In this document: positions 12,191 through 58,144 of the stretch, in pieces
How the letters are laid out: each line of letters starts with the position of its first letter
Position numbering within the stretch: position 1 is the first letter of the stretch
Assembly: GCF_003546865.1 (NCBI RefSeq)
Contig: NZ_CP023434.1
Coordinates: 992,001-1,056,000, forward strand
Reading direction: 5' to 3'
Length of the DNA stretch: 64,000 nucleotides
Source: Suicoccus acidiformans
Lineage (GTDB): Bacteria; Bacillota; Bacilli; Lactobacillales; Aerococcaceae
Translations under genes and position numbers: made by a program
The notes under the pieces: model-generated
Databases searched by the model: none
What the model saw: only the letters and a program-made list of their open reading frames with translations
What the model was told of the DNA's origin: nothing

Positions 12191-12224
12191 CTGGAAGCTT
12201 GGGTGTAGGTTGGGTTGCTAATAG

Positions 12225-12347
12225 AAGTATAGGAAAGTAGTCTTATCAAGTTGGTTTTCTAAGACAAGTATAGGAAACTAGTCTTATTAAGTTGGTTTGC
12301 TAAGACAAGTATTCGAAACTAGTCTTATCAAGTCCGGTTTCTAATAG
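12225..12347. repeat. Three tandem 41-bp repeats
   Basis: Copies lie at 12225-12265, 12266-12306 and 12307-12347, with partial copies on both sides (about 12203-12224 and 12348-12353). Each unit holds the inverted pair GTCTTA and TAAGAC, so the array can fold into alternative hairpins. Copies differ at a few positions, mostly in the third. The array lies between the dipeptidase terminator and the ktrB promoter and encodes nothing evident. The rest of 12191-12570 is AT-rich with no gene. Confidence 0.9.
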
Positions 12348-12571
12348 AAGTTTCACAAGCTAATATTAAGAAGAAGGTATAGTCTTGAAAGGAGTAAATT
12401 TATTCAGCCTACGATCCATAAAATTAAAAAAATTTGCCTTTTGCATTAAATTCTACCTGTATAAGGTATGATTGTATCCATTGTTTTTAAAGTATTTATT
12501 CAAGGTCAGTGGAAATTGTTGCCGCAATATAATTATAAAAATCATGACTACTATTTTATATAAGCTTTTGT

Positions 12572-38849: not shown

Positions 38850-39893
38850 ATGGAAAGACAAACTAAACCTCAAGAAGAACGTGTAAGAGAAGCTAGACTA
38901 GCGACGAGCACTGATATTGATATTCAAACTCAAGCGATATCTAAAGACGATGCTAAATGGATGCATAAGAATATGAATGATATCCGCAATTTTGAAGATG
39001 AAGTGCATCGCTTTTTCGCTCAGGGAGCTATCCCAGGCTTTGTTCACTTGTATGCTGGTCAAGAAGCCATTGCAACAGGTATTTGTGCGCATTTAACCGA
39101 TGAAGACTATATCACTTCTACTCACCGGGGACATGGGCACTGTATTGCTAAAGGGTGCGATTTAAATGGTATGATGGCTGAGATTTACGGCAAAGCCACC
39201 GGCCTTGGCAAAGGTAAAGGTGGTTCCATGCATATTGCTGACCTTGACGTAGGAATGTTAGGTGCTAATGGGATGGTTGGGGGAGGTTTTGGTCTCGGTT
39301 TAGGAGCTGGTCTTCGCAACAAGTATCTTGAAACAGATAATGTCGCAGTTGTGTTCTTTGGTGATGGTGCTTCAAATGAAGGGGTTTTCCATGAATGTCT
39401 TAATATGGCGAAAATTTGGAATATTCCAGTCATTTTTGTTTGTGAAATGAACTATTTTGCTGAATCGACACCGCAATGGTATTCATCAGCATCTGAAACA
39501 ATTGCTGAACGGGCTGCTGCTTATAATATGCCAGGTATTCGTGTCAACGGGAAAGATATTACCGAAGTGTATAAAGTGGCGGGTGAAGCGATTCAACGGG
39601 CGCGTAATGGGGAAGGGCCAACTCTTATAGAATGTGTTACTTATCGTAATTATGGTCACTTTGAAGGAGACGAACAGAAATATAAGAGCAGAGATGGTCT
39701 TGAAAAAGAACTCGCTGAAACTGACCCAATTGTTGAATTTAGAAAATATATGGTCGAAAATAATATCTTTACTGATGAAGAAATTGATCAAATTGAAGAA
39801 GAGTCACGCAAAGATATTGAGGCTGCTATAGAGTTTGCCGAAAAAAGTCCTGAACCTGATCCAGAATCACTCTATGAAGATGTTTATGCTTAA
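38850..39893 (+). CDS. acoA: Acetoin dehydrogenase E1 alpha subunit
   Basis: A 347-residue thiamine-diphosphate enzyme subunit. The cofactor motif is GDGASNEG (171-178). The run HLYAGQEAIATGICAHL and STHRGHGHCIAKG is the type seen in acetoin dehydrogenases rather than pyruvate dehydrogenases. With acoB it cleaves acetoin to acetaldehyde and passes the acetyl group to lipoate. A GGAGG site precedes the ATG. The first 30 residues form a polar, probably flexible extension. Confidence 0.88.
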   Translation: MERQTKPQEERVREARLATSTDIDIQTQAISKDDAKWMHKNMNDIRNFEDEVHRFFAQGAIPGFVHLYAGQEAIATGICAHLTDEDYITSTHRGHGHCIAKGCDLNGMMAEIYGKATGLGKGKGGSMHIADLDVGMLGANGMVGGGFGLGLGAGLRNKYLETDNVAVVFFGDGASNEGVFHECLNMAKIWNIPVIFVCEMNYFAESTPQWYSSASETIAERAAAYNMPGIRVNGKDITEVYKVAGEAIQRARNGEGPTLIECVTYRNYGHFEGDEQKYKSRDGLEKELAETDPIVEFRKYMVENNIFTDEEIDQIEEESRKDIEAAIEFAEKSPEPDPESLYEDVYA

Positions 39894-39926
39894 ACAATCT
39901 AAAAGAAAAACAAAGGAGAGATAATC

Positions 39927-40958
39927 ATGGCTAGAGAAACAACATTTATGAATGCAATCAATGAAGCGTTGGATCAGGCAATGGAGAAAGATGACCGTGT
40001 CTTTCTTATGGGAGAGGACATATACGGGGGTACACAAGTTGAACATTTGGAAGAAGCTAATGAAGATGCTTGGGGTGGTGTTTTCGGAGTAACAAAAGGC
40101 TTAGGACCTAAGTATGGGTACAAGCGTGTTATTGATGTTCCCCTATCTGAACATGGTTATATGAGTGCGGCTGTTGGTGCGGCCGTTACAGGATTAAGAC
40201 CTATTCCGGAACTTATGTTTAATGATTTTCTGGGTTGGTGTTTCGACGCAGTCTTAGGGCAAGGTTCTAAGATGCGTTATATGTTTGGAGGAAAGGCTAA
40301 AGTTCCTGTCACAGTGCGTACGAGTCACGGGGCTGGGGCTAGTGCAGCTGCACAACACTCGGGCTCTTATTATGGAATTTTGGGCAGTATTCCAGGAATT
40401 AAAGTAGTAGTTCCAGCGACTCCATATGATGCGAAAGGACTGCTCCTTGCATCGATTGAGGATGATAATATGTGCTTCTTCTTTGAAGACAAGACATTAT
40501 ATGGACTTAAAGGCGAAGTACCGGAAGACTATTACACGGTTGAAATCGGAAAAGCAAATGTCGTTGAAGAAGGTGACGACTTAACAATTGTAACTATTGG
40601 CAAAATGCTATTTGTAGCCTTAGAAGTTCGTGAAGCTTTAGCTGAACAAGGGGTTTCGGTTGAAGTAATCGATTTGAGAACCGTAGCTCCTTGGGATCAA
40701 GCAACGATTATTGAATCGGTTAAGAAAACCGGAAGATTAATCGTAATTGATGAAGCGAATCCACATAATAATACCGCAACTGATATTGCATCTGTTGTTG
40801 GCCAGGAAGCTTTTGACTATCTTGATGGCCCTATCAAAACAGTGACAGCTCCTAACACGCCTGTCCCATTTGCTAGTAATTTGGAACAGCTTTATATCCC
40901 AGATGCTGACAAAGTCATGCGTGAATGTGCCGAAATAATCGATGATTTAAAAGTTTAG
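39927..40958 (+). CDS. acoB: Acetoin dehydrogenase E1 beta subunit
   Basis: A 343-residue transketolase-like beta subunit that completes the E1 heterotetramer. It opens NEALDQAMEKDDRVFLMGEDI, shows PLSEHGYMSAAVGAA and RTSHGAGASAAAQHS, and ends with the C-terminal domain around VIDLRTVAPWD. Length and order are standard for the family. It lies 33 bases after acoA behind an AAAGGAGAG site. Confidence 0.9.
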   Translation: MARETTFMNAINEALDQAMEKDDRVFLMGEDIYGGTQVEHLEEANEDAWGGVFGVTKGLGPKYGYKRVIDVPLSEHGYMSAAVGAAVTGLRPIPELMFNDFLGWCFDAVLGQGSKMRYMFGGKAKVPVTVRTSHGAGASAAAQHSGSYYGILGSIPGIKVVVPATPYDAKGLLLASIEDDNMCFFFEDKTLYGLKGEVPEDYYTVEIGKANVVEEGDDLTIVTIGKMLFVALEVREALAEQGVSVEVIDLRTVAPWDQATIIESVKKTGRLIVIDEANPHNNTATDIASVVGQEAFDYLDGPIKTVTAPNTPVPFASNLEQLYIPDADKVMRECAEIIDDLKV

Positions 40959-40982
40959 GAATAACAGAAAAGGGGTGAGAGA

Positions 40983-42212
40983 ATGGCAACGAAAATTGTA
41001 ATGCCAACACTCGGCTTAACAATGACCGAAGGAACCATTGATGAATGGCTAGTCTCTGAAGGTGATTCAGTTTCTAAAGGCGACCCCGTTGCTTCAATCA
41101 GTTCAGAAAAACTATCGGCTGATGTAGAAGCACCTGAAGATGGGGTTGTGCTAAAAATTGTAGCTGACGAAGGTGACACCGTTCCTATTAAAGAAGCTAT
41201 GGCCTATATTGGTGAAGAAGGCGAGACGATTGATGTAAGTAATGATGTAAAGGATAAGACTGAAAACAAACAACAAACCGAAGTGCAAGCACCAGAAAAG
41301 CAAGTGACCAAGAAAGAAGTAGCGGAAGACTATGAATCAAAAGAGGGGGGACGTATCTTCATTACTCCGCTCGCACGTAAGATGGCTGCTGAGAAAGGTT
41401 ATGATATCAGCAAAATTAATGGCACAGGTGGTAATGGCCGAATTACACGTAGGGATATAGAAAGATATGTTCCAGAACAGGATGCTATAGAGAGCAAAGC
41501 AGTTTCTGTGGAAAGTGAAGAAATCGGTGCTGGCTTAACAGGTATGCGTAAGACAATTGCTCAACGGATGGTCCGCAGCTTACAGACAACCGCTCAAGTG
41601 ACGATTCATGCCAAAGCGGATGTTACCAGCTTAATGGCTTTTAGAAAAGATATGAAAGCAAAGGTGAATGTGCCACTCGACCGAGGACAATTGAGCATAA
41701 ATACGCTTATCACGCGGGCAACAATTTTGGCTTTGAAAGAGACGCCTGAAATGAATGGTTGGTACGCCAATGGCTCGTATGAGCAAATTGAAGAAATACA
41801 TATCGGACAAGCTGTATCTGTGGATGATGGGTTAGTAGTTCCGGTTGTGAAATATGCCGGCAAAATGAATTTAACTGAACTCGGCAGTGCTTTGTCAGAT
41901 GTGGCGACACAAGCTCGTCAGGGCACATTGTCTGGTGACTTATACGGCGGTTCTACTTTCACAATTACTAACTTAGGTCATTCAGGTATAGAATACTTCA
42001 CACCCATTATTAATAGTCCAGAAATAGGTATTCTAGGGGTAGGAGCAATTCAATCAGAACTAGGTTTTGATGAGAACAAAGAAGTAGTTGAATTAGTGAA
42101 ATTAGGCTTAAGTTTAACCTTTGACCACCAGATTATTGATGGCTCAGAAGCAGCCGATTTTCTAGCGTTAATTATTTCCTTCCTAGAAGATCCATATCGT
42201 TTAGTACTTTAA
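40983..42212 (+). CDS. acoC: Acetoin dehydrogenase E2 acetyltransferase
   Basis: A 409-residue dihydrolipoamide acyltransferase. Residues 1-78 are one lipoyl domain with Lys43 in SSEKLSAD; a charged linker follows; the E1/E3-binding domain lies at about 118-155 (ITPLARKMAAEKG, NGRITRRDI); the catalytic domain has the HxxxDG motif in FDHQIIDGSEA (His382, Asp386). It forms the core of the complex and gives acetyl-CoA. It is the last gene of the operon and is followed by a strong terminator that also marks a group II intron insertion. Confidence 0.9.
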   Translation: MATKIVMPTLGLTMTEGTIDEWLVSEGDSVSKGDPVASISSEKLSADVEAPEDGVVLKIVADEGDTVPIKEAMAYIGEEGETIDVSNDVKDKTENKQQTEVQAPEKQVTKKEVAEDYESKEGGRIFITPLARKMAAEKGYDISKINGTGGNGRITRRDIERYVPEQDAIESKAVSVESEEIGAGLTGMRKTIAQRMVRSLQTTAQVTIHAKADVTSLMAFRKDMKAKVNVPLDRGQLSINTLITRATILALKETPEMNGWYANGSYEQIEEIHIGQAVSVDDGLVVPVVKYAGKMNLTELGSALSDVATQARQGTLSGDLYGGSTFTITNLGHSGIEYFTPIINSPEIGILGVGAIQSELGFDENKEVVELVKLGLSLTFDHQIIDGSEAADFLALIISFLEDPYRLVL

Positions 42213-42367: not shown

Positions 42368-43830
42368 GTGCGCCCGGCATGGGCGATAACTCGGTGGTGA
42401 AAGTCCACTGCAGGCTTGGTAGCAGGAACTGCTAGCTGAAGGCAAGGATATCCATCGTAAGGCGGAATCTGAAGGAAGCCGGTGGCAAATACTTGCGCTG
42501 ACGAACAGAAACTTTATATCAAGGCTGAGGCAGATGGATGGCTTGCTAAACAAAGCGAACTCCGATACTACACGAAATCTGTAGCAGTAAATAAAGCAGC
42601 GACATGAGTAGAAAGTTATCGCGCTTACCCGGGGAGGTCTCATGGGCGTCATAAGATGTAGTAATAACGAATCATGAGAAGTCAGCAGCAGCCATAGTAG
42701 GTAACAAAGTTACTGAAGGGGTGAACAACAATTCATCTTGAAGTAGACAAGGAGGTAGACGTTGACTCCTCAATTACCGAAAACACCCGCGATTAAGTTC
42801 AAATAAGGGGCGACCCAATGTGGAGGGATAGGGCTGGAAGCCGAAAGAGTAAACATTGGGGTCAAGGACGACACTAAGACTATGAAGAGCCAAGATAATA
42901 TTTCTGAACGATGAATAAACCTCATGGCAACACCAGAAAACTTACAACTGGCATGCGAAAAGGTTTATGCAAATAAAGGAGCTCCTGGTATGGATGGGGT
43001 GACCGTTGATGATATTGAAGAACATATATCGGAATATGGCTCAGCTATTCTTTGGAAAGTGAAGGATGGAAGCTATCAACCCTTACCTGTAAAGGGGGTA
43101 TATATCCCGAAAGAGAATGGAGCTAAACGAGTGTTAGGCATCCCGGTAGTTCGAGACCGTATCGTCCAACAGATGATATTCTTGTGTACTGCGAAACACT
43201 TAAACAAGCGAACTTCATAAAATATATAATTGGCAAAAGATTAGAGGAAGTTGGGCTAGAAATGCATCCAACTAAGACAAAAATCATATACTGTCAAGAT
43301 AAAGATAGAGTTGCCGATTTTAGCGAAATTAAATTCGAATTTCTAGGATATGAATTCCGAAAACGGATGATGAAAAATAGGTACAGAAAGCCAATACTCA
43401 ACTTCACCCCGGCAGTAAGTCCCAATTCCCAAAAGAAATTTAGGAATAGTATCCGGGAACTGAGACTACCTTCAAGGAGTGGGACACTGCTAAGCATGAT
43501 AGCCGAAGAAATTAATCCTAAAGTTCGTGGTTGGTTAAACTATTTCAAGAAATACAATCCGAGCCAAGTTAAGCAGAGTATGAACTGGTTAAAGAGAATA
43601 CTTGTGGACTGAGTCATGAATAAGTTTAAACGATTCAGAGGGCATAAGAAAGAGCCAGTGAATGGATCAAAGGATTTAATCAGAGGGAAGCTGACCTATT
43701 TGTGCATTGGCAAATGGGCTGGCTACCATCATGGTAAGGGAAATAACAAGAGTCATATGAATCGAGAGGTTCACATACGGTGCTGTGAGAGCTTTCAGGG
43801 GAAATTAGGTTATAGTTTTCATAGCATAAA
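42368..43830 (+). mobile_element. Group IIC-type intron, decayed
   Basis: The 5' end GTGCGCCCGGCATGGGC and inner runs such as GGAATCTGAAGGAAGC and TTACCCGGGGAGGTCT are of the bacterial class C ribozyme type. Insertion right behind a terminator hairpin is the habit of that class. The encoded reverse transcriptase is broken. A domain V-like hairpin lies near 43749-43784 (the GAG near its base and tip are visible) but has mismatches in the lower stem. Domain VI and the exact 3' end are blurred, so the right boundary is a guess (about 43,800-43,835). Confidence 0.8.
42882..43737 (+). pseudogene. Broken group II intron reverse transcriptase/maturase
   Basis: Reading from the likely ATG at 42882, the protein meets TGA at 42912-42914, then runs through the N-terminal reverse transcriptase part (KGAPGMDGVTVDD, YIPKENGAKRVLGIP). 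At about 43170-43174 it jumps out of frame from VRDRIVQQ straight to DDILVYCETL. The piece between, which holds the first catalytic Asp and the YA of the YADD box, is deleted. The thumb and maturase part follow in the new frame until TGA at 43610-43612, where Trp is expected. A one-base loss near 43645 shifts the rest; restored, it ends HWQMGWLPSW at 43737. No active enzyme can be made. Confidence 0.88.
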
Positions 43831-44711: not shown

Positions 44712-44799
44712 ATGTCATAGATTAGTTACAATTATGCCAGTGAGTGCGACTGTTCGGGCTGGTGTTCTCTTCATTTAAATACCCAAAGGAGTAGTGGAA

Positions 44800-47700
44800 A
44801 TGTTAGGTAAGAATAATTATCAGAAGAAATTTGAGCAACAGAGTGATAAAGGGCATCGCTATGCTTTAAAGAAATTGAGTGTAGGTGTGGTTTCTATTGC
44901 GGTATCATCTTTCTTTTTTGTGTCACTAGGTGTCCAGCAAGTACAGGCGATGACGGGACAACCGGAAGTGGCAACAGGGACTTTGGGGACTCCTGAGGAT
45001 ATTGGGTCTACTCCTCAAGGAGGATTTTCGGAGCCTGAAACAGCTGACACAGGAACAGACACGGAGGACAGTTCATTCGGCGTGGAAACGAACAATGCAG
45101 GGGCAGCGGGCTTGTCGGATGAACTTCAATTTCAAACCTTTGCGACACCAGAAGGTCAGTCAGGGGAAAGTGAATCTACAGATGGCCCGAGGCCGATTGA
45201 AGAGAAGGTGGAAGGCGGGACTCTTGACACATATAAAGAACAGAACGTCGAAATCCAAGAGACCGAGTCTGAAGTTACGACACAAGAAGCGGCCGATGCA
45301 CAAGTGGCAAGCCCAGTCCCAAAGCCGGAGTACGGGGTGCAAATCCGCTACCAAGCCACCTATAAAGAAGAGTATCAGGATGAAGTGGGTAATACACAAT
45401 TTCGAGACAGAATCATAGACCTTTCCCAGCCTTATCAAGCTACCTTTAGCCAGGAGGTCTTTGAAAACGGTCTCCATGGTAAAAACGTAGACATCACTTC
45501 TCCGCAGATCGATGGCTATACACCTGATCAAGCGACGGTGACCTTATCCAAAGAAACTTGGAAGGATGCAAAGAGTGGGGAATTCCAATCAACGACGGAC
45601 ACACCCAAAGTGATCATCGTTGAATACAAGCCAGATCAGGTTCAATTTAAGGTTCGCCACTGGTTGCAACGCTTTGACCAAGGTGGCCGCCCTGTCTATG
45701 ACCAATTGAATGCGGCTTATTATGCAGATCCTAAGAAGGTTAAACCACTTTTAATTGAAGGCACCCAAGTCCTTGAGTCTACGACAACCAACTCAGATGG
45801 CTCTGTGACTGAGAATTGGCGGACAGTGGGTGAAGATGAGCAACTTACGAAAGATATGACAATTAAGTCCGGGCTGCGTTATCGTGAGACAGGAAAAGAA
45901 GCAAACTTACCTGAGCGAAAAATCATTTTCGATGGAGATCATACCATTCAAACCGGTCTCGTAGGAGAAGAGGTTGAAGCTTTAGGCTTGCCCATCCAAG
46001 GTTTCACGGCTGAACGACCAACGCTCACTGTTCTACCCCAAAACACTCAGGATGCCGAGACAGGTGAAATCCAGTATGTCTTAGACCTTCGCTACCGTCG
46101 TAACAACTACACGGTAAACTTTGATTCGGGAACGCCAGCTTTAAAGATTCGTAACATGCAACACTATTACGATGCGCCACTCCTAACCATGCAAGAACGA
46201 GGCGACCAAGTTCCTTTCCGTCGAGGCTATATCTTCACTGGCTGGGAGGCCTATGACGAAGAAGGGAACCTGATGCCTGAGTTGGCAGGCTACAACCCCT
46301 ATACAGGAGATAGGAGCAAGATGGCTGACCCTAATCAAGTGGTGGTCATGCCAGCCCATGATGTCACGTTTAAGGCTTTATGGAAAGCGGATGAGAATGC
46401 CTCTTATTCGATTCATTTCTGGGCGGAAAACCCTGATTGGAAGGAAGGCGACAATCCGGCCGACCGTTGGGACTATGTTGGGCGTAAGCTAGGAACGGGT
46501 ACCACCGATACCGAGGCGGACTTATCAACGATCACAGCAGGGCAATTGGACTGGCCGGATATTGATCCAGTAGACGAGAACGACCCATTTGAGTTTGCTA
46601 AATACTACACCCTGAACCAAGAGGAATCCAACCAGGCCAATGCCGGTAAGACTATTGATGGGGATGGATCGACCTCCTACAACCTTTACTATGATCGTAA
46701 GGTTTATACCTTGATTTTTGGGAGGGCACTCCACCAAAGCTCTGCATATCAATTTAACCCAACCATTACCATGGATGGGGTCAAATATGAACCCATCAAT
46801 CCTTATGATGTCTATCGTCGCAAGGTGAAGTTTGGCCAGACCCTAGTAGTGGGTGAAGACTGGCCTAACCAAAACCAGATTGAGGGTTGGCCAGCGAGAA
46901 TGAACAACAATGGCTGGTATCTTTATGGTGCAAAGGGGCCTGTAGATTACCGGGATGCCCCACCTTACACTTTGAATAAGGAGCAGTTTATTCAACATGG
47001 CCCCTATGAAAATAAGGCACTTGGCATCCTAATGCAGCCGGATGAAATCTATCTTGGAATTATGGCAGGAACAAATACAGTACCGGTTCACTTCGCATAT
47101 AATATCGAAACAGTGGAATCTGCCCAAGCTCGTTACGAGGCTCAGATTCAAGGAAAGGCTATACCTGACCCTGTTTATGTCACTGACCCAAGTGTTATTG
47201 AAAATGGCATTCGAAATGATACGAGCGCCCCTGCATATAAGTTCCCCGGCCCTGAAGTGGATGGTTTTACCTTAGTTAATCCGCGTCAAGGAGCAATAAC
47301 AGTTAAAGGTGCTAATAGATGGGCTGCGCAAGGCTTAGAAGAAAAGTACGGTCCCTATATTGCTGTTGGGGAAAATGGTGTGCGATACAGTGAGAATAGG
47401 ACTGTTGACTATTACTATCAACGCAAGATATCTCACGTTGAGTTTATCCCGGACTCTACCAAGCCTAATGTGAGATATGGCCTAGACCAAAGTCTACCTA
47501 ATGTCAATTCGGATAACACCTTGTCCCTGGCTTACCAGACCGACTTGACCAAGATTGACCTGCCAACCATGCCCAAGTATCCAGATCCAATAGACATCCC
47601 AAGCCTGCCACCTAGCCAGCCTGGTCCAGATGCGCCAGCTGAGGTCCAGGCTGAATATGAGGCAGCTATGCAACAATACCAACAAGCCAAAGCTGCTTAT

Positions 47701-50700
47701 GAAGCCGCTTTGGCAGCCTACCATGAAGCATATGCCAAGGTTAAGGAAGAGCTAGACAAATACCGTCCAGCAGATGTGCCTGAAGACTATGAATTCAAAG
47801 GCTGGGGCATTGAAGAAGGCTGGGCAATTAACAGTGGCGTCATTGATGATAACCGGACTAATAATGAGGTTGGGGGACGTCGTGACCACGTACCATCTAC
47901 TTCGCCCTTGACCCTCTATGCTAAGTGGGGGGCGCCTGATGCGGAATATACCGTTTTATATGACTTTAACGGTGGGACGATGCAAGACCATAATGGCCAA
48001 CTTATTAAAGAAGGCCGTTATAAGGTTAAGTACGGCGACAAGATCGCTGAGCCAAGCCAGCTTGAAGAACCTACCCGTGAAGGCTATGACTTTATTGGTT
48101 GGGAATATATTGTAGAGGACAATGATAGCAGCCAGCGAGACACACCGTTACTCTATTCGTTCGACAACCGAGTAAATGACCATATCCGTCTGCGTGCTAT
48201 GTGGGAACCACACCAGAAGACATCCGTGACGGTCAAACATGAATTTTATGACAATCGAAACTTTACGGGTACTCCAACCGAAATCTTCACAGAAGAAATT
48301 GACGGGGTTCGTGTGGGATCTTATTGGTCCAAGGATGCCATCTATGCTGGTGAAGATTATGTGGCGGAACATCGCTTTGGTGTTATAACTGATGTTCAAC
48401 CGGGTGCAGAGCTTACATTTAAATATCGTCCTTATTTACGACGCCAATACACTATTTCCTATGTGGACCAAAACGGTAATAAACTTTTAGATGACAAAAA
48501 AGTAACCAATGGGAATCGCCACTATGATGCAGATCATTACGTGAATATTCCGGGGTATCAATTGGTTGAACAGGCTAGCTTAACTGCCGATGAGAAGAAT
48601 AAGTATGGAATCAACCAATACCAAGATAGCCTCGCTTCTCAATACCAATTTGAATATCTAAATGAAGGCTTGCAAGACGGCCCAGGTATTCCGCCAGAGA
48701 AGGGATTCAAGCGGGTCTATGTCTACCAAGACAAACGAGTGATTCAGCGAGATGTCAGCCAGACTCAAGGGTATAAACCAGAAGACCATCCGGTGCCAGA
48801 AGGCTACACTCGGGTCATTATTCAAACTCAGCCAGAAGGTAAGTTAGCTTATAAAGATTCAATTAACCCAAGCCCTCAGCCACTTGTGTTTGATGTGCAC
48901 AAGTCGGTTCGTATGGAACAATTGCCAGACCTTATCTCGAATGGTAATACTCATCCAGACCCTGCAGTCAATGCCAAGCCTAACGAAGGTTATATGTTCA
49001 AGGACTGGGTAAGGGTAGATGGCGGAACAGCCAGGGCACTACCGCAAGACGAAGCTGTCTTGAGTGAACCGCTTTATACTTTTGAAGCTCGTTATTCTGC
49101 CGATGACCAGAAGGCCTACCTCCGATTTATTGATACGACGAATGATAACAAGGTAATCTACTCCCTCGTTACAGATGGAAAGACAGGGGAAACAGGCAGC
49201 TTTACTAATCCGGATACTCTAAATAATCAATATTATGAAAATTTGGACTTATTCAGAGGAAAAGGTTACGCCATCCAAGGGCTCTATCAAACCAGCACGA
49301 CAGATAACATTCCAGCGAATGCCCCTGTTGAGGCTAAACCTACGCTGACTGATGCGTATGATTTCGCGAATGAATTTACCTTTGACACTGACAAGACCCA
49401 ACACCAGGTCTTCGATGTCTATATGGAACACCGTGTCGTGCCTATTCTCACCTATACCCAGGATGAAGAGGGCAACAACCAGAAGACTTGGGGCACCAAC
49501 ATTGATGGAAATAACCTGCCTCAAAAGGATGCCCCTTATGGTGATTTAAAGAATGAGCCTATGCTCTGGCCAAAAAAAGTCGACCCAGCTGAAATCATGA
49601 ACCAGTTTCATATCCAGCGTAAGGTCAACCACTATCAAGGCGGTACGACCACACCAATTGCAGACCAGACCGTCCAGACCCTCTATTTCGAAGCGCCTGT
49701 CTATATGGATATGGTGACGGGGGACTATATCTACGACTGGGGTGACCTGCAGGTGGGTGATGGTACGCAATACTTCCCACTCAATGCCTTAGATTCTAAG
49801 AAGACCTTCCCGCAAGTGGATGCCATTACGGACCCCGCAAAATATGCAGCAGGTGTGACAGGTTACTGGGTTGCTAATCCAGAAGCAAATTTTGTGGCAG
49901 CTAAGGATGTGGATGCCAAGACCGACACTAAAATAGATGAAATTCTAAGGAATCTGAAAAAGTTAGAAGACAACCGCGCTTACCCTGAGTTATACGGCAC
50001 AGCCGACCTCTTCTACAAGCAAGTCTTAGTAGTCGGTGAACCCCATCAAGAAGGCGAATTTGTTGACCCCAATGCTAATGATTTAAAGAACGAACCAACA
50101 TGGGGGCCGGGCTTGACAGAGACGGACTTGAAAGAGTCGGTTCAGCGTACGATTCGCTTCCAGAAGCAAGCTGGTAGCCAGGTAGATGGTAGCCAGGTAG
50201 CGCCCGATTACATTCAAACTCTCAACTTCCAGCGCAAGGCCCATGTGAATCCTTGGACTTATGAAGTGCTGGCTGAAGGTGACCTAACGGGTGTAGCAAC
50301 CTATACCGATTGGGAGTTTGTGGGAATAGCAGGTCAGAATATTTTCCCTGTCTTGACAGACAAGGAAATCCCAAAACTGGCCGGTTACACCGCGACACAT
50401 CTCCCAACCACTAGTCAAGCAGTTTCAGCAACGGATACGGATACGACTCATACAGTCATCTACACTCCAGATCCTCAAAAGGCTGTGGTGAAGTTCGTCG
50501 ACACCGATGTTAATAAGGGGAGAAACCCTCAATTAGCGAGCATCGACTTAAGCGGTGTGACAGACCAAAATCTAACGGGAGCAACGGAGTATGCAACTAT
50601 TCAGACTCAGATTAATGAATTGCTCAAGCGAGGGTATAAGGTACAGAAGAATCCGCTCGATGGTACGCAGATTTTTGATAAGGATGGCAGTGTTGACCAA

Positions 50701-53700
50701 AGTTATCAGATTTCCATGGTCCACCGTTATGAGCCGATTGCTGACCCTGGTAACTTGCCGACGCCGGGTGAGCTAGTTAATCCGGAAGATCCGAATAGTC
50801 CGAAGTGGCCAACGCCTGAAGGAGACATCCAGACACCGAGAGACTATAAACGAACCATTAAATTCGTTGATGAAGCCGGCACGGAATTGGCTACTTCTGT
50901 TGAACAGACTATTTATATCGAGGCCAAAGTCAGCATCGACCTTGTGACCGGTAAGTACTACTATGATTACTATAAGTACGATACAGAGGGTATTCCTGAG
51001 CCGTATGTGATGGAGGCTGTCCCAGCCAAGGCAATTGACGGCTATGTACCTAAGTCTGCTACCTACGATGGTCAGCCAGCTGAAGGCACTACCGTTCCAG
51101 CCTTGACCATTGAACCCCATTCAACGGAAAACTTCACTAAAGAAGGGCAAATTGTCTATGTCCAACTCATTACAGTCCAGCCAAATAATCCTAAGACAGG
51201 CGGAGAGCCGATTGACCCGGCTCAGCCAGATGGACCGAAATGGCCGGCAGATGTTGACCAGGCAGGCTTGAACAAGACCATTCAGCGGAGGATTGACTAT
51301 GTAGTTCCGGTAGGCTTTGAAGCGCAAAAACCGGCAAACGTGACCCAGGACGTAACTTATACACGGACGGCTAGGGTGAATCCATTGACTGGAGAGGTGG
51401 TTGACTATAGCGACTGGACCAGCACCAAGGCCAGCCATGACCAGGTAAATACGCCTCTAGTTACGGGCCTGATTGCCGATACAGCAAGTGTCCCTGAAAA
51501 GACTCATGTAGCTGTAACGGATACAGACACGCCAGTAACGGTCACTTATAAGAAGTTAGGTCAAGTGAAGCCTCAACTCAAGACGGAAGGTATTACGAAT
51601 CCGGTCAATACGGATGCAAATAAACTACCAGCTGAGATGACGTATCCCAACCATCCGACAGACCCAACCAAAGTAGGCCAGCCAACTATCCCAGTTCTTG
51701 CTGACCATACCCCTGTAGATGCATCAGGTCAGGCGCTTGAATTAGCAGACCCAACCAATCCGTCTAAGGGCTACAAGGTGCCAGTGCCGACTGATCCAAC
51801 GCAAGATGTGTCTGTTTTCTACGTGCCGTTTGCGCAATTGAACAAGACGGATATATCTTTTGACAAGCCAATTACTGGTTTGAACCCAGATCAGATGTCT
51901 GAAGAAGTCGTTCGCACTATCACTTATGTAGTGAAGAATGGTACGGCGACAGCTCCCGAAGCTAAGACAGATAAGCTCACCTTCTCTCGTCAGGCTGTGG
52001 TGGACACAGTGAATAACAAGTTCATTCGCTTTAACGAGTGGACAGCAGATAAGGGTACAAATTTTGAAGCAGTAACTTCGCCAACTGTAGCGAACCATTT
52101 TGTCGATAAACCAGAAGTCCTAGCAAATGATAATGCGAAGGCTGATGACCCAGACATCTCTGTGATTGTAACTTACGCTAAGGAAATTATTCTTGACGGA
52201 GACAATCCGAAAACTACAACGGACCTAGTTGATCCAAATGACCCAACAAATACGACGAAGTTCGGTCAAGGCTTAACTAAGAACGACTTACGTCAAGATG
52301 TGAAACGAACCATTAAGTATATCAAGGCGGAAGATAGCTCTACGGTTCATCGTGATGAAGTTCAAACGGTAACCTTTGACCGAAAAGCTGTGGTTAACCC
52401 ATGGACGGGTCAAGCGGTATCTTATACAGAGTGGACACCGGCGACCGCAACGGTAAATGCTGTTAATTCACCGAATCTTGAAGGCTACAGCCCAGATAAG
52501 GTAACGGTTGAAGCGCATAGCTTTAAGCAGGGCGACCCAGATGCGACTGTAACGGTGATCTACGCTAAGCACCTGATTATCCCAGCTGATCAAGCCAAGA
52601 CACCAGGTCAACCAATTAATGAGCAGAAGCCAGAAGGACCGAAATGGCCAGCTGAAACAGCTCAAGATCAGCTGAATAAGACAATTCAACGGACAATCAC
52701 CCATGACGTGCCAGCTGATTGGACAGGTACGAAACCTGTTGATGAAGTTCAGAAAGTAGACTTTACCCGTTCTGCCATTGTCAACCCATGGACTGGTGAA
52801 TTTATTAAACACACGGACTGGGAGGCAACAAAAGATAGCTATGACAGCTACAAGGCTCCAGTGGTAACTGGATTAGTAGCTGACAAGGTGAATGTAGACG
52901 GTAAGGCTGGCGTAACAGTTAATGATACTGATTCAACCGAAACAATCACTTATAGCGAGCTCGGTCAGCTAACTTTCAGCTACAAGCGTGAGGGCATTAC
53001 TAACCCAGTGAATTCAACTGCAACACTATCTAATAGCATCACTTATCCAAATGATCCGAATGATGCGACGCAGATTGTAACTACGAACACAGTGATTCCT
53101 TATGTCAAGGACCACACGCCAGTGGTTGGCACAAAACCGCTTGAATTAGTTGATCCAACGGACCCAAGCCAGGGCTATAAGATGCCAAGGCCTGAGTCAC
53201 TGACCGGTGATACGGCGATTGAGTACATTCCTTTTGCGCAATTAACGCCAGGGAACTTTAACGAGTCCCATACACCTGCAGGCTTTGATGTGACAAGTTT
53301 GACAGATACCGTAACCCAAACCATCCACTATGTTGACGAAAGCAATAATAAACTTTCTCAACCAACGACAGAAACCTTGACCTTCAAGCGGACTGCGGTT
53401 GTGGATACGGTGAATAACGCGTTTATACGCTATAACGATTGGACAACGGATAAGGATAACTTTGACGCAGTGAAGGCTCATTTAATCGAGGGCTACCTAG
53501 CGACTGTTGCACAAGTAGAAGCTGTCCCTAATATAAAAGCAGGCGCAGAGGATATTACCCAAAAGATTGTCTACAAGAAACTCGGACAAGTTACAGCTCA
53601 ATTTGATACGGTCGGCTTACGTAATCCACTGCCTTCAAATCAAGCAGACTTACCTTGCGTCGTAACTTATCCTAACGACGCTGAAGACGTCACGAAGGCA

Positions 53701-56433
53701 GGCCAACCGACGATTAAGTATATTCCGAACCACACGCCAGTAGTGGATGGACTAGCCTTGACGCCAGTTGATTCAGCTGATTTGAGTAAGGGCTACATAG
53801 TCCCGGTGCCAAATAATCCGTCAGAAGATGTAACGGTATCTTATGTGCCGTTTGACCAGTTGTCGAGTGATGAGCTTACACCGACAAATAGGCCAAAGCT
53901 TTTTGACCCAGAGACATTGAGGGAGACGGTGACTCGCACGATTAAGTATGTTTACGCAGATGGAAGTTCGGCATGGAAAACCGAGGTGCAGACTCTGAAC
54001 TTTACACGTAAAGTGATTGTCGATACGGTGAATACAAGTTTCGAAGGCTATACGCCTTGGCAGCCAACGGAGGCATCTTTAATAGCGGTGAATAGCCCAA
54101 TTGTGCCAGGGTTCATTGCCGACCAAGCGCAGGTGCCTGGTGTGGTGAATGTCCCAGTGACAGCGGAAGATAGTAGGGTGACGGTGATTTACCGGGAGCT
54201 AGGTCAGATTAATACCCAATATGATCCGACCGGGATCTCGAACCCGGTACCGTCTAATCCAGAGGACTTACCAGAAGGTACAAGCTATCCAAACGACAGC
54301 GATAATCCTAGTCAAGCGAAGGGAACGACGATTGGCTACGTGACGAATCATACGCCAGTCATGGATGGTCAGCCGCTTAAGCCGGTAAATCCTGGCGATC
54401 CAACACAAGGATATATTGTCCCAGTTCCAGACAATCCGACAGAAAGTATTACTGTATCTTATATTCCATTTGCGCAACCAAGCGTAGAGGAATTGAAGCA
54501 TATGTCGGATATTGAAGGACTTGATCCGAATGCGTTGAATAAGAAGGTTATCCAAAGGATTCATTTTGTCGATGAGATGGGCAACCCGCTGGCAGAAAAC
54601 GCCGTTCAGCAAATTGATTTCAGCCGTAATGCTGTTATCGATACCGTTAACCAGAAATTAATCAACTACAAATCGTGGACACCGGTTACGAAGAAGATGA
54701 CTTTTGATCCAACACCAGTACCAATCATTCCAGGCTATATTGCCAATAAGACGGTTGTTCCAGGCACCCTCAGCGTGATAGCTACTGATGAGGACCGGAC
54801 GGAAACAGTAAGCTATCAAAGAATCGGCCAAGTTGTAACCGAGTACCAACCGGAAGGCATTGTTAACCCAGTGCCATCCAAGGATAGTGAGTTGCCAGCA
54901 GCCACCACCTATCCGAACCATCCAACGGATCCAACCCAAGTGAGTCAGCCTGTTATCGCCTATGTGCCAAACCATACACCGGTTTCAAACGGCGTTGCTC
55001 TTACACCGGTAGATTCGGCGGACCTAAAGCAAGGCTATCTTGTACCAGTTCCGAACGATGTAAGGAAAGACCTCACGGTTTCCTACGTGCCATTCGCTCA
55101 ACCGAATGCAGAAGAAGCCAAGGTTATGCCAGATGTAGAAGGCCTCAACCCAGACGACCTAGTCCAAACCGTGACACGGACCGTGCATTTTGTTGATGAG
55201 ACGGGTGCACCGCTGAAAGCAGACGCTTTACAACAGCTCGACTTCAAGCGCACGGCTGTGGTAGACACTGTTCACAAGACATTGGTAGGCTTCAATGAGT
55301 GGACAGCGGACGATACGACCTTCCAGGCCGTACAGGTTCCTGTTGTGGCCGGATATATTACGCAAGTCAGAGAAATATCAGCCCAAACAGATGTCACCGC
55401 AGTCTCTTCAGATCAGTCGGTCGATGTAATCTTCGCATCACTAGGTGAGATGCAATTCGAAGTGGAACGCCCAGATGGCAGCTATTCAGCCGCCATCCCA
55501 GCACCGAATAACTTCCAGTATCCGAACCATCCGAGTGATCCATCCCAAATTGGTAAATTTACGCTGCCATATTATGACAATTATGTGGCGGTTTTAACGG
55601 ATACGCGCGAACCGCTTACACTGATTGATCCAGCGAACCCAGCACTTGGCTATTACATGCCAGAGATTAGCGATCCAACCTTGAACTGCAATGTTTTATA
55701 CGTGGCTCTGAGCCTCGTCTCGCCGGACCAAGGACGCATCCCAGGCCAACCGATTTCACCGAGCCACCCAGATATCACATGGCCAAACCAAGTCTCCCCA
55801 GACCTCTTACAAAAAGAGATCACACGGACCATTCACTTGGTAGATGAAAGTGGCCAGGCCTTGCAAAGACCGATTGTGCAACGCCTCCACTTTACACGAA
55901 AAGCCATCGTAAACCCAGTAACGGGCGAATTCGTTGGCTATACAGACTTTGCCCCAAGCACGCAAAGTTTCGACGCCGTGACCTTGCCAGATATTGTGGA
56001 CTATACCTGTGATCAAGATACGGTGCCAAGTTTAGTAATTGACGCCTTGAGCAATCCTATCGAGGTTACTGCGACGTATCGCCATATCGCTTCCGGCGAT
56101 TCAGGTACACCAAGTGTTCCAATCAAGCCACATGTTCCAAGTAATCCTGATGCCCCAGGTGAACCAGGCCATGTGCCAAGCACTCCTGAGCAGCCTACAG
56201 AACTAGGAACAAACACCGGTCAAGAAGGAACCGGCTTACCAGGCACTGGCCTCATCACTTCAGATAGTAGCCAAACCTCACTGCCAGCAACCGGCGGCCA
56301 CGGCTTTGACATCCTACCTGAAACGGGTGAGACGGAGCCAAATTACGCACTATTCTCTGCCGCAGCCCTGTCCTTGTTGTCAGGTTTAGGCTTACTCAAA
56401 GGCAAGAAAAGCGAAGAAGAGGACGAAGCTTAA
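44800..56433 (+). CDS. Giant LPXTG-anchored mucin-binding-type adhesin
   Basis: A protein of about 3,877 residues. Residues 1-50 are a YSIRK-like signal (YALKKLSVGVVS) with cleavage expected after VQA. An acidic Ser/Thr/Glu-rich stretch follows. The N-terminal half holds two InlB B-repeat-like units (about 437-530 and 1049-1137), a Pro-flanked helical segment (about 931-994) and an MucBP-like unit (about 1214-1287, ISYVDQNGNKL). From about 1,600 to 3,766 some twelve Muc_B2-like domains (RTIxxV, then FTRKAVVD, then a W and a DAV/PxVxGY pattern) alternate in the second half with six spacer domains (GITNPV, YPN, HTPV, GY-VPVP, VPFAQ). The end carries LPGTG, LPATG and LPETG motifs, a membrane segment and a charged tail. 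Sortase should link it to the wall, where it probably binds mucin or other host glycoproteins. The ATG at 44800 is set by the AAAGGAG spacing. Confidence 0.9.
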   Translation: MLGKNNYQKKFEQQSDKGHRYALKKLSVGVVSIAVSSFFFVSLGVQQVQAMTGQPEVATGTLGTPEDIGSTPQGGFSEPETADTGTDTEDSSFGVETNNAGAAGLSDELQFQTFATPEGQSGESESTDGPRPIEEKVEGGTLDTYKEQNVEIQETESEVTTQEAADAQVASPVPKPEYGVQIRYQATYKEEYQDEVGNTQFRDRIIDLSQPYQATFSQEVFENGLHGKNVDITSPQIDGYTPDQATVTLSKETWKDAKSGEFQSTTDTPKVIIVEYKPDQVQFKVRHWLQRFDQGGRPVYDQLNAAYYADPKKVKPLLIEGTQVLESTTTNSDGSVTENWRTVGEDEQLTKDMTIKSGLRYRETGKEANLPERKIIFDGDHTIQTGLVGEEVEALGLPIQGFTAERPTLTVLPQNTQDAETGEIQYVLDLRYRRNNYTVNFDSGTPALKIRNMQHYYDAPLLTMQERGDQVPFRRGYIFTGWEAYDEEGNLMPELAGYNPYTGDRSKMADPNQVVVMPAHDVTFKALWKADENASYSIHFWAENPDWKEGDNPADRWDYVGRKLGTGTTDTEADLSTITAGQLDWPDIDPVDENDPFEFAKYYTLNQEESNQANAGKTIDGDGSTSYNLYYDRKVYTLIFGRALHQSSAYQFNPTITMDGVKYEPINPYDVYRRKVKFGQTLVVGEDWPNQNQIEGWPARMNNNGWYLYGAKGPVDYRDAPPYTLNKEQFIQHGPYENKALGILMQPDEIYLGIMAGTNTVPVHFAYNIETVESAQARYEAQIQGKAIPDPVYVTDPSVIENGIRNDTSAPAYKFPGPEVDGFTLVNPRQGAITVKGANRWAAQGLEEKYGPYIAVGENGVRYSENRTVDYYYQRKISHVEFIPDSTKPNVRYGLDQSLPNVNSDNTLSLAYQTDLTKIDLPTMPKYPDPIDIPSLPPSQPGPDAPAEVQAEYEAAMQQYQQAKAAYEAALAAYHEAYAKVKEELDKYRPADVPEDYEFKGWGIEEGWAINSGVIDDNRTNNEVGGRRDHVPSTSPLTLYAKWGAPDAEYTVLYDFNGGTMQDHNGQLIKEGRYKVKYGDKIAEPSQLEEPTREGYDFIGWEYIVEDNDSSQRDTPLLYSFDNRVNDHIRLRAMWEPHQKTSVTVKHEFYDNRNFTGTPTEIFTEEIDGVRVGSYWSKDAIYAGEDYVAEHRFGVITDVQPGAELTFKYRPYLRRQYTISYVDQNGNKLLDDKKVTNGNRHYDADHYVNIPGYQLVEQASLTADEKNKYGINQYQDSLASQYQFEYLNEGLQDGPGIPPEKGFKRVYVYQDKRVIQRDVSQTQGYKPEDHPVPEGYTRVIIQTQPEGKLAYKDSINPSPQPLVFDVHKSVRMEQLPDLISNGNTHPDPAVNAKPNEGYMFKDWVRVDGGTARALPQDEAVLSEPLYTFEARYSADDQKAYLRFIDTTNDNKVIYSLVTDGKTGETGSFTNPDTLNNQYYENLDLFRGKGYAIQGLYQTSTTDNIPANAPVEAKPTLTDAYDFANEFTFDTDKTQHQVFDVYMEHRVVPILTYTQDEEGNNQKTWGTNIDGNNLPQKDAPYGDLKNEPMLWPKKVDPAEIMNQFHIQRKVNHYQGGTTTPIADQTVQTLYFEAPVYMDMVTGDYIYDWGDLQVGDGTQYFPLNALDSKKTFPQVDAITDPAKYAAGVTGYWVANPEANFVAAKDVDAKTDTKIDEILRNLKKLEDNRAYPELYGTADLFYKQVLVVGEPHQEGEFVDPNANDLKNEPTWGPGLTETDLKESVQRTIRFQKQAGSQVDGSQVAPDYIQTLNFQRKAHVNPWTYEVLAEGDLTGVATYTDWEFVGIAGQNIFPVLTDKEIPKLAGYTATHLPTTSQAVSATDTDTTHTVIYTPDPQKAVVKFVDTDVNKGRNPQLASIDLSGVTDQNLTGATEYATIQTQINELLKRGYKVQKNPLDGTQIFDKDGSVDQSYQISMVHRYEPIADPGNLPTPGELVNPEDPNSPKWPTPEGDIQTPRDYKRTIKFVDEAGTELATSVEQTIYIEAKVSIDLVTGKYYYDYYKYDTEGIPEPYVMEAVPAKAIDGYVPKSATYDGQPAEGTTVPALTIEPHSTENFTKEGQIVYVQLITVQPNNPKTGGEPIDPAQPDGPKWPADVDQAGLNKTIQRRIDYVVPVGFEAQKPANVTQDVTYTRTARVNPLTGEVVDYSDWTSTKASHDQVNTPLVTGLIADTASVPEKTHVAVTDTDTPVTVTYKKLGQVKPQLKTEGITNPVNTDANKLPAEMTYPNHPTDPTKVGQPTIPVLADHTPVDASGQALELADPTNPSKGYKVPVPTDPTQDVSVFYVPFAQLNKTDISFDKPITGLNPDQMSEEVVRTITYVVKNGTATAPEAKTDKLTFSRQAVVDTVNNKFIRFNEWTADKGTNFEAVTSPTVANHFVDKPEVLANDNAKADDPDISVIVTYAKEIILDGDNPKTTTDLVDPNDPTNTTKFGQGLTKNDLRQDVKRTIKYIKAEDSSTVHRDEVQTVTFDRKAVVNPWTGQAVSYTEWTPATATVNAVNSPNLEGYSPDKVTVEAHSFKQGDPDATVTVIYAKHLIIPADQAKTPGQPINEQKPEGPKWPAETAQDQLNKTIQRTITHDVPADWTGTKPVDEVQKVDFTRSAIVNPWTGEFIKHTDWEATKDSYDSYKAPVVTGLVADKVNVDGKAGVTVNDTDSTETITYSELGQLTFSYKREGITNPVNSTATLSNSITYPNDPNDATQIVTTNTVIPYVKDHTPVVGTKPLELVDPTDPSQGYKMPRPESLTGDTAIEYIPFAQLTPGNFNESHTPAGFDVTSLTDTVTQTIHYVDESNNKLSQPTTETLTFKRTAVVDTVNNAFIRYNDWTTDKDNFDAVKAHLIEGYLATVAQVEAVPNIKAGAEDITQKIVYKKLGQVTAQFDTVGLRNPLPSNQADLPCVVTYPNDAEDVTKAGQPTIKYIPNHTPVVDGLALTPVDSADLSKGYIVPVPNNPSEDVTVSYVPFDQLSSDELTPTNRPKLFDPETLRETVTRTIKYVYADGSSAWKTEVQTLNFTRKVIVDTVNTSFEGYTPWQPTEASLIAVNSPIVPGFIADQAQVPGVVNVPVTAEDSRVTVIYRELGQINTQYDPTGISNPVPSNPEDLPEGTSYPNDSDNPSQAKGTTIGYVTNHTPVMDGQPLKPVNPGDPTQGYIVPVPDNPTESITVSYIPFAQPSVEELKHMSDIEGLDPNALNKKVIQRIHFVDEMGNPLAENAVQQIDFSRNAVIDTVNQKLINYKSWTPVTKKMTFDPTPVPIIPGYIANKTVVPGTLSVIATDEDRTETVSYQRIGQVVTEYQPEGIVNPVPSKDSELPAATTYPNHPTDPTQVSQPVIAYVPNHTPVSNGVALTPVDSADLKQGYLVPVPNDVRKDLTVSYVPFAQPNAEEAKVMPDVEGLNPDDLVQTVTRTVHFVDETGAPLKADALQQLDFKRTAVVDTVHKTLVGFNEWTADDTTFQAVQVPVVAGYITQVREISAQTDVTAVSSDQSVDVIFASLGEMQFEVERPDGSYSAAIPAPNNFQYPNHPSDPSQIGKFTLPYYDNYVAVLTDTREPLTLIDPANPALGYYMPEISDPTLNCNVLYVALSLVSPDQGRIPGQPISPSHPDITWPNQVSPDLLQKEITRTIHLVDESGQALQRPIVQRLHFTRKAIVNPVTGEFVGYTDFAPSTQSFDAVTLPDIVDYTCDQDTVPSLVIDALSNPIEVTATYRHIASGDSGTPSVPIKPHVPSNPDAPGEPGHVPSTPEQPTELGTNTGQEGTGLPGTGLITSDSSQTSLPATGGHGFDILPETGETEPNYALFSAAALSLLSGLGLLKGKKSEEEDEA
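53300..56095 (+). repeat. Intragenic ~620-bp repeats (Muc_B2 plus spacer)
   Basis: Within the adhesin gene the Muc_B2 starts fall near 53309, 53929, 54544, 55168 and 55816, a period of about 620 bases. Each unit is one Muc_B2-like domain and one spacer domain of about 95-100 residues. Copies have diverged at the protein level, so they are old duplications rather than recent slippage. Earlier, less regular copies extend back to about 49600. Confidence 0.8.
56236..56328 (+). other. Three sortase-like motifs in a row
   Basis: Codons for LPGTG (56236-56250), LPATG (56281-56295) and LPETG (56314-56328) occur in frame within 93 bases at the adhesin C-terminus. Only the last directly precedes the membrane segment and charged tail, so it is the expected sortase A site. 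Confidence 0.85.
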
Positions 56434-56450
56434 AGTTCGCTCCATATAGG

Positions 56451-56486
56451 AACAGGGAATGCCCTTTTAGGCATTCCCTGTTTTTG
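56451..56486 (+). terminator. Adhesin gene terminator
   Basis: A perfect 13-bp stem (56451-56463 with 56470-56482) is followed by a T run, 18 bases after the stop codon. Confidence 0.9.
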
Positions 56487-56553: not shown

Positions 56554-58144
56554 GAGCCTGTAAGATAATTCCTCAAAAAACCCAGAATTTTTTCTCAATG
56601 AATAAGATTTCTGGGTCTTTTGACCTGGGCTGAGTCTCAGTGCAAGTCGTCTTAAGTTTGCAGCCATTAAGGCCAATCCTATTTCGTTTTTCGCCTTATC
56701 GATTCCTCTAACATGGAATCTTGTGAAGCCTAAGCAGGCCTTCAGAAAACCGAGCGCAGGTTCTACGTCTATTTTCCGATTGCCGTAAATTTCTTATTCT
56801 CTTCATCCGACAGAAGTTCCCGTTGCTTGGCTTTATAATACTCAAGTTCGGGGTTTATTCTTATCTTGTGTACATTGCCTTTGTCTGTGAGCGCCGCTTC
56901 TATAATGTTCTGGTCTGCATCAAATTTCTCTGCATGATATTCCTTGAAGCTTCGCTCATAACCATATTTATTTATCATTTTTCGATATGTATGAAAGTTG
57001 AACCTCACGCCTTCGAGGTCTATAGAGTAGTTTTCTTCATTATAATCCCAGTTCATCACTTTTTTAGGGTCTTCTTGCCATTTTTTAGACTTTTCTTTGT
57101 AGTAAGTATCATAGGGAATAAGTGGTGTTAAATCCGGGAAATTCTCTTCGAGATATGGATAATTTGCTTGAGAACCATATCCAGAGTCTAATCCGATATA
57201 TGCACTTGCTTCAAATAAAACTCGATGAATCTCCATAAAAGGAATCAGGGTGCGTGTATCTATCGGGTTAGGAAATAAATCAAAGGCCAAGAAAAATTGA
57301 TGAGACGTCGCTACTTGAAGATTATAACCAGGTTTAGTCTGACCATTCCGCATAGGGCCATCTTTCATCCGCATAAAGGTCGCATCAGGGTCTGTTTTAG
57401 AGTAAGAGTTGCGCTCTTTAAATATCTGATGCTGCGCTTCATATTCCAACGCTTTTCCTCGACGTTCAATGATTTTATTACAACGGCCTCTAAGGAAACG
57501 GCGTACTTGCTTATCTGATTAGGAGACTTCTTAGGATCTGCTTCAATGGCTTCATTTAGGTCTTTGATACGAATCTCAATTTCCGTAATAAGTTCACCAA
57601 GGTCGTTTAGGATGAGCTGTGTATCTTCAGGAATCGTTTGACGATTATAGTTATCATTTAGTTCATTAACCAAACTTACCAATTGTCTACGATTCATCTT
57701 TTCATAACGAATCGTATTCTTCTTCCATTGAAAGCTGTATTTATTGGCATCCGCAAGTAATTTGGTGCCATCAATAAAGACCTTAGCATCAATAAGTCCT
57801 TGTTCTTTAAGGAAGTTTGTGAAGCGTTCAAAGCTATGCGTTAAAATTTCACGCAATTCAGCTGAGCGTCTAAAACGACAAATTGTTTCATGGGATGGTG
57901 TCTGCTCTTGAGTTAGCCACCGAGCCGCTAAGCTATCTTCCGCAAATTCAGCCATTGGTCTACTTGTCTTAATTCCTTGGGAATAAGCTAGGAGCAATAA
58001 CTTTAATAACATTGAAAAGTCCTATTCTCGAGGTCATCCAAAGCCATATGGTTGTTCAATCTCAAGTGCTTCAACAAAAACATTAATATACCATGCGATA
58101 AGGCCTTCTTTCGGTGTATATTGAGTGGACAGCTCCAATGTCAT
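56554..58144 (-). pseudogene. IS1182-family transposase, four lesions
   Basis: The gene reads from an ATG at 58144 (minus strand). Two in-frame stops, TGA at 58036-58034 and TAG at 58024-58022, break the N-terminal part where Arg and Tyr would be expected. The helix-rich N-terminal domain then continues (MLLKLLLLAYSQG, PSHETICRFRR, KVFIDGTKLLADANK). A frameshift between about 57530 and 57450 leads into the DDE part (NSYSKTDPDATFMRMKDG, YIGLDSGYGSQ). Another one-base shift near 56780 leads into the C-terminal part (KIDVEPALGFLK, HVRGIDKAKNEIGLALMA). No functional enzyme can be produced. Confidence 0.87.

Follow-up and report, generated by a model that had tools for sequence, protein, structure and literature searches.

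The window, a 64,000-nucleotide stretch of Suicoccus acidiformans DNA, contains an uninterrupted forward-strand frame that an open reading frame scan traces from a GTG at position 44794 through 3,879 codons to a stop at 56433. Since AAAGGAG is correctly spaced for the in-frame ATG at 44800, this ATG is the likely start in preference to the alternative GTG at 44794, and the resulting gene (44800–56433, +) encodes a product of ~3,877 residues. This agrees, start codon included, with the initial annotation, which had read these 11.6 kb as a single gene. A terminator-like hairpin of 17 pairs lies just 3′ of the gene at 56447–56486, and the G+C content of the gene (47.5%) exceeds that of the window (43.5%). 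Directly downstream is a transposase remnant at 56769–58012 (−), split into a DUF772 half and a DDE_Tnp_1 half whose two frames overlap, and a group II intron maturase fragment (GIIM domain, 142 residues) is located upstream at 43184–43612 (+), which places the giant gene between mobile-element remnants. Also upstream are dehydrogenase-complex genes of the pyruvate-dehydrogenase type (E1 alpha, E1 beta and E2; 38850–42212, +), and elsewhere in the window a 41-bp unit occurs in 3.5 tandem copies between long open frames (12209–12351).

The product begins with a YSIRK-type signal peptide at 44848–44922 (+; PF04650, residues 19–43, 8.9e-5; TIGR01168, 1.4e-8) and ends with an LPETG cell-wall anchor region at 56314–56415 (+), which is below the Pfam cut-off with PF00746 (residues 3841–3874) and over the model's own cut-off with TIGR01167 (17 bits). 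As a sortase is present in the same genome, the signal peptide, LPXTG anchor and genomic sortase that define the LPXTG wall-anchored class were all found. The N-terminal part, ~1,770 residues, includes InlB-type repeats, and the C-terminal part is an array of Muc_B2 domains with an alternating spacer of ~95 residues. Besides Muc_B2, Pfam models identified one InlB B-type repeat in the N-terminal region (Flg_new, PF09479, residues 1052–1103, 7.1e-7; 47947–48102, +), one SSSPR-51 repeat, and one MucBP_2, or B1, domain (PF17965, residues 1895–1977, 7.2e-13; 50476–50724, +), the sole clear copy in the gene.

Eleven copies of Muc_B2 (PF17966) scored over the Pfam cut-off of 23.5 bits, the best at 91.4 bits, and one further piece was sub-threshold; both the identity of the repeats and the count of about twelve given in the initial annotation were therefore right. 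On the forward strand the Pfam Muc_B2 model places domain 1 at 50116–50472, the divergent domain 2 at 50839–51075, and domains 3 to 11 at 51256–51555, 51886–52182, 52276–52569, 52660–52959, 53290–53580, 53908–54198, 54523–54822, 55147–55437 and 55801–56085, respectively. Sequence comparison identified six spacers of ~95 residues each, starting at residues 2255, 2723, 2930, 3136, 3344 and 3550 and encoded (+) at 51556–51843, 52960–53247, 53581–53865, 54199–54483, 54823–55107 and 55441–55722. Spacers 1–5 share an N-P after G-I/L and the motifs YPN, HTPV and V/I-PF-x-Q, while the divergent spacer 6 is without most of these. The alternation of spacer and Muc_B2 described earlier for the second half of the protein is strict from residue 2624 on, but three consecutive Muc_B2 domains follow spacer 1. 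Linkers from a spacer to the next Muc_B2 measure ~14–18 residues for spacers 1–5 and ~26–32 for spacer 6. The spacer-bearing units of this gene have no MucBP_2, which leaves a two-part Muc_B2-spacer alternation.

The spacer had not been recognized as a member of any named family, and profile searches gave the same answer. When the six spacers were compared with Pfam at E 10, just two chance-level rows were returned, under the cut-offs of the families concerned. Together with 29 related spacers they matched no known family, SHIRT included, among 24,736 Pfam models, and nothing meaningful was found for these 35 wider-family spacers in Pfam, NCBIfam or PHROGs. A spacer profile likewise matched no solved structure among PDB chain sequences, including the solved half of Lactococcus lactis YwfG. 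A literature search for the spacer motifs found no paper, and the main text of two surveys of fibrillar adhesins names neither Muc_B2 nor MucBP. An origin of the spacer by decay of a Muc_B2 or MucBP_2 domain was unsupported by profile-profile comparison with either family, an insensitive test, as MucBP_2 compared with Muc_B2 also failed.

A first search with a single spacer as the query matched 3 other genomes among 60 relatives. With a profile built from 35 spacers, the module was found in 59 of the 395 Lactobacillales genomes searched, spread over 17 of 80 genera, counting the window's own. Carriers include Streptococcus suis, S. danieliae, S. pacificus, Gemella haemolysans and Weissella confusa, as well as Secundilactobacillus, Lentilactobacillus and Ligilactobacillus, and across genera the spacer is near-constant in length with conserved Y, L, G and P positions. 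Among the 395 genomes, Muc_B2 was present in 53 of the 59 with a spacer versus ~14 expected (odds ratio 59, P about 6e-32). A spacer came directly after Muc_B2 in 51 of 90 cases in an earlier set from relatives. At the loci holding the best match per genome, Muc_B2 was the preceding domain for 40 of 68 spacers, a set that includes the window's locus and others from the earlier 90 and so is not fully independent; the gap between the two domains was 1–2 residues in 39 of these 40. The usual order in proteins of Streptococcus, Gemella and Weissella is MucBP_2-Muc_B2-spacer, in up to about nine repeats, and in another Streptococcus genome (locus L030) Muc_B2 directly follows a spacer. As tandem spacers occur without a detected adjacent Muc_B2 at four loci (L012, L029, L069 and L078), the spacer is not an obligatory partner of Muc_B2. 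On these sequence comparisons, the spacer is not private to this gene: it is widespread in Lactobacillales as the third element of MucBP_2-Muc_B2-spacer repeats. The two-part repeat found here is a variant of that commoner three-part repeat.

To the suggestion that the spacer may be a new structural module, AlphaFold2 models gave a divided answer: the spacer is predicted to be a folded module, and an unnamed one, but its fold is not clearly new. Spacer 5 modelled alone reached a mean pLDDT of 92.8 and a pTM of 0.80. A Muc_B2-spacer-Muc_B2 model had a pLDDT of 96.7 with no residue under 70, and a pTM of 0.79, at which the relative orientation of the domains may be wrong. Within this model the spacer had a pLDDT of about 96, and no spacer residue fell under 50 either alone or in context. 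The first spacer strand (model residues 102–107) begins just after the last Muc_B2 strand (91–99) ends. In the same prediction the Muc_B2 part (model residues 1–102) superimposes on the mucin-binding structure 3nz3 with a Z of 10.8 and an rmsd of 1.9 over 95 residues, as expected of a mucin-binding B2 fold. For the spacer model, Foldseek alone found no PDB match below E 2. VIA-align placed it nearest to stalk domains such as SHIRT (7avk; Z 4.7, rmsd 2.8 over 70 residues, tied with unrelated rows), MucBP (3q69; Z 4.4), the Muc_B2 part of YwfG (7yl4; Z 4.2) and the InlB B-repeat (2y5p; Z 3.9), with a sialidase near the top of the list and ubiquitin-like proteins lower. As all of these neighbors are under Z 5, the model suggests, and does no more than suggest, a beta-grasp-type fold.

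The period of about 620 bases noted in the initial annotation was recovered as start-to-start spacings of 618, 618 and 624 bp in the last units (repeat families D2 and D7), and a longer spacing of 1,401–1,404 bp joins the first two spacer blocks (families D4 and D8). Tandem Repeats Finder listed no array of the ~620-bp unit in the gene, but this is uninformative, as its longest period is 500. Within the gene the spacers are 29–56% identical in protein and 40–59% in DNA, and the Muc_B2 copies 16–47% and 34–55%, respectively. Because the copies have diverged to about 40–60% DNA identity, recent growth is rejected: judged by sequence, the repeats are old, and growth by unit duplication stands as ancient history, not as recent expansion.

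Whether spacer and Muc_B2 duplicated as a pair was assessed with Mantel tests and trees. In this gene, the distances among spacers correlated weakly with those of the preceding Muc_B2 (rho 0.36, P 0.05) and of the following one (rho 0.29, P 0.15). In Streptococcus sp. 121 the preceding domain gave a strong correlation (rho 0.81, P 0.0003) and the following domain none; for the preceding domain, Weissella showed a moderate correlation (rho 0.56, P 0.025), and S. danieliae and Gemella weak ones. In the tree, Muc_B2 2157 groups with 2624 (support 100/96) and Muc_B2 2365 with 2834 (88/75), and a Muc_B2-spacer-Muc_B2 block was probably duplicated at the 1,401–1,404-bp spacing. Of the six Muc_B2 domains located after a spacer, five form one cluster, with support that is modest (82/85). 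The idea that spacers were duplicated along with an adjacent Muc_B2 is thus partly supported, with good support for one block duplication.

Among known systems, the protein resembles the Mub repeats of Limosilactobacillus reuteri (Mub-R5, 3i57; Mub-RV, 4mt5) in the sequence and fold of Muc_B2 and in being a large surface repeat protein. Each Mub repeat pairs MucBP_2 (B1) with a following Muc_B2 (B2), whereas the whole protein studied here has one clear MucBP_2 and its main repeat is Muc_B2 plus the unnamed spacer. A giant protein of Streptococcus sp. 121 (3,907 residues) likewise has YSIRK and LPXTG signals and Muc_B2 directly followed by the same spacer family; its unit is the three-part one, unlike here, and its N-terminal region bears a pectate-lyase-like adhesive domain (PF20585) that was not found in our protein. 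YwfG (7yl4, PMC9815576) combines MucBP and Mub repeats and matches in its Muc_B2 part, but differs in its L-type lectin head. SHIRT, or Periscope, proteins (Sgo_0707, PMC8201768) share tandem stalks in an LPXTG protein and the weak structural similarity to the spacer noted above (Z 4.7), without a sequence match. Periscope proteins carry highly identical tandem DNA repeats; as the copies here are divergent rather than near-identical, recombination-driven changes in length are not expected.

From its signal, anchor and domain composition, a fibrillar wall-anchored adhesin is by far the likeliest reading of this gene. We put a probability of roughly 0.8 on a sortase-anchored Mub-type adhesin in which the spacer is a folded unit of a stiff stalk and contacts with mucus or matrix are presumed. 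The spacer would fold compactly and begin almost immediately after the final strand of the Muc_B2 before it, and the short linker of about 14–18 residues to the next Muc_B2 would yield a stiff rod that could project the N-terminal region away from the wall. Since tandem SHIRT arrays have been measured as rod-like (PMC8201768), we infer a stiff stalk from this precedent and the predicted model. The repeated Muc_B2 domains, and perhaps the spacers, may make many weak contacts with mucus glycans or host matrix; going solely by its Muc_B2 relatives, the protein probably binds mucus. In evolutionary terms, the spacer belongs to the three-part repeat common in Lactobacillales, the spacer-bearing units here being without MucBP_2.

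The nature of the spacer itself admits several readings. It is proline-rich, has few regular strands and matches no family, as a flexible linker without a fold of its own might, yet the confidence of the models (mean pLDDT 92.8 alone, about 96 in context), the near-constant length and the positions conserved across genera make such a linker very improbable. The same conservation, and the tandem spacers without Muc_B2 in some proteins, would suit a spacer that is the main ligand-binding module, merely spaced out by Muc_B2. Most of its invariant positions, however, are taken by proline, glycine or tyrosine, residue types that stabilize turns, and the published mucus-binding work known to us concerns the B1/B2 repeats of Mub, not the spacer, so we regard this role as unlikely. 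That the spacer is a divergent SHIRT, MucBP or Muc_B2 domain, and so belongs to an established beta-grasp stalk family rather than to a separate one, is plausible if doubtful: many of the top structural neighbors (7avk, 3q69, 7yl4 and 2y5p) are Gram-positive stalk domains, but their Z-scores, all under 5, tie with those of unrelated proteins, the spacer profile showed no homology to those of Muc_B2 and MucBP_2, and no spacer matches the SHIRT, MucBP or Muc_B2 Pfam models. That the spacer founds a new, widespread Lactobacillales family of stalk domains, with a distinct loop-rich fold and perhaps a ligand of its own, overlooked as a linker of Muc_B2, is a tentative proposal to which we give somewhat less than even odds. 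On the adhesin reading, the spacer adds a new component to a type of adhesive stalk already known and does not make a new kind of machine.

Many giant adhesins of streptococci, Gemella, Weissella and their relatives, groups that include mucosal pathogens and commensals, have had an unannotated stretch of ~95 residues in each repeat, which the spacer accounts for. Naming the domain would allow such proteins to be annotated, counted and tested. The three-part and two-part repeats offer a natural experiment on the shares of MucBP_2, Muc_B2 and spacer in mucus adhesion. At L012 and L015 (genome G014), tandem spacers are separated by long KPEEQPEQPGETTG repeats, and no Muc_B2 is present. At L030 (genome G406), the protein that carries the spacer also has another, different module (LGKIIQVDEDGNVIPN...) after Muc_B2, at residues about 216–300 of the cut frame, which may be a distant relative of the spacer.
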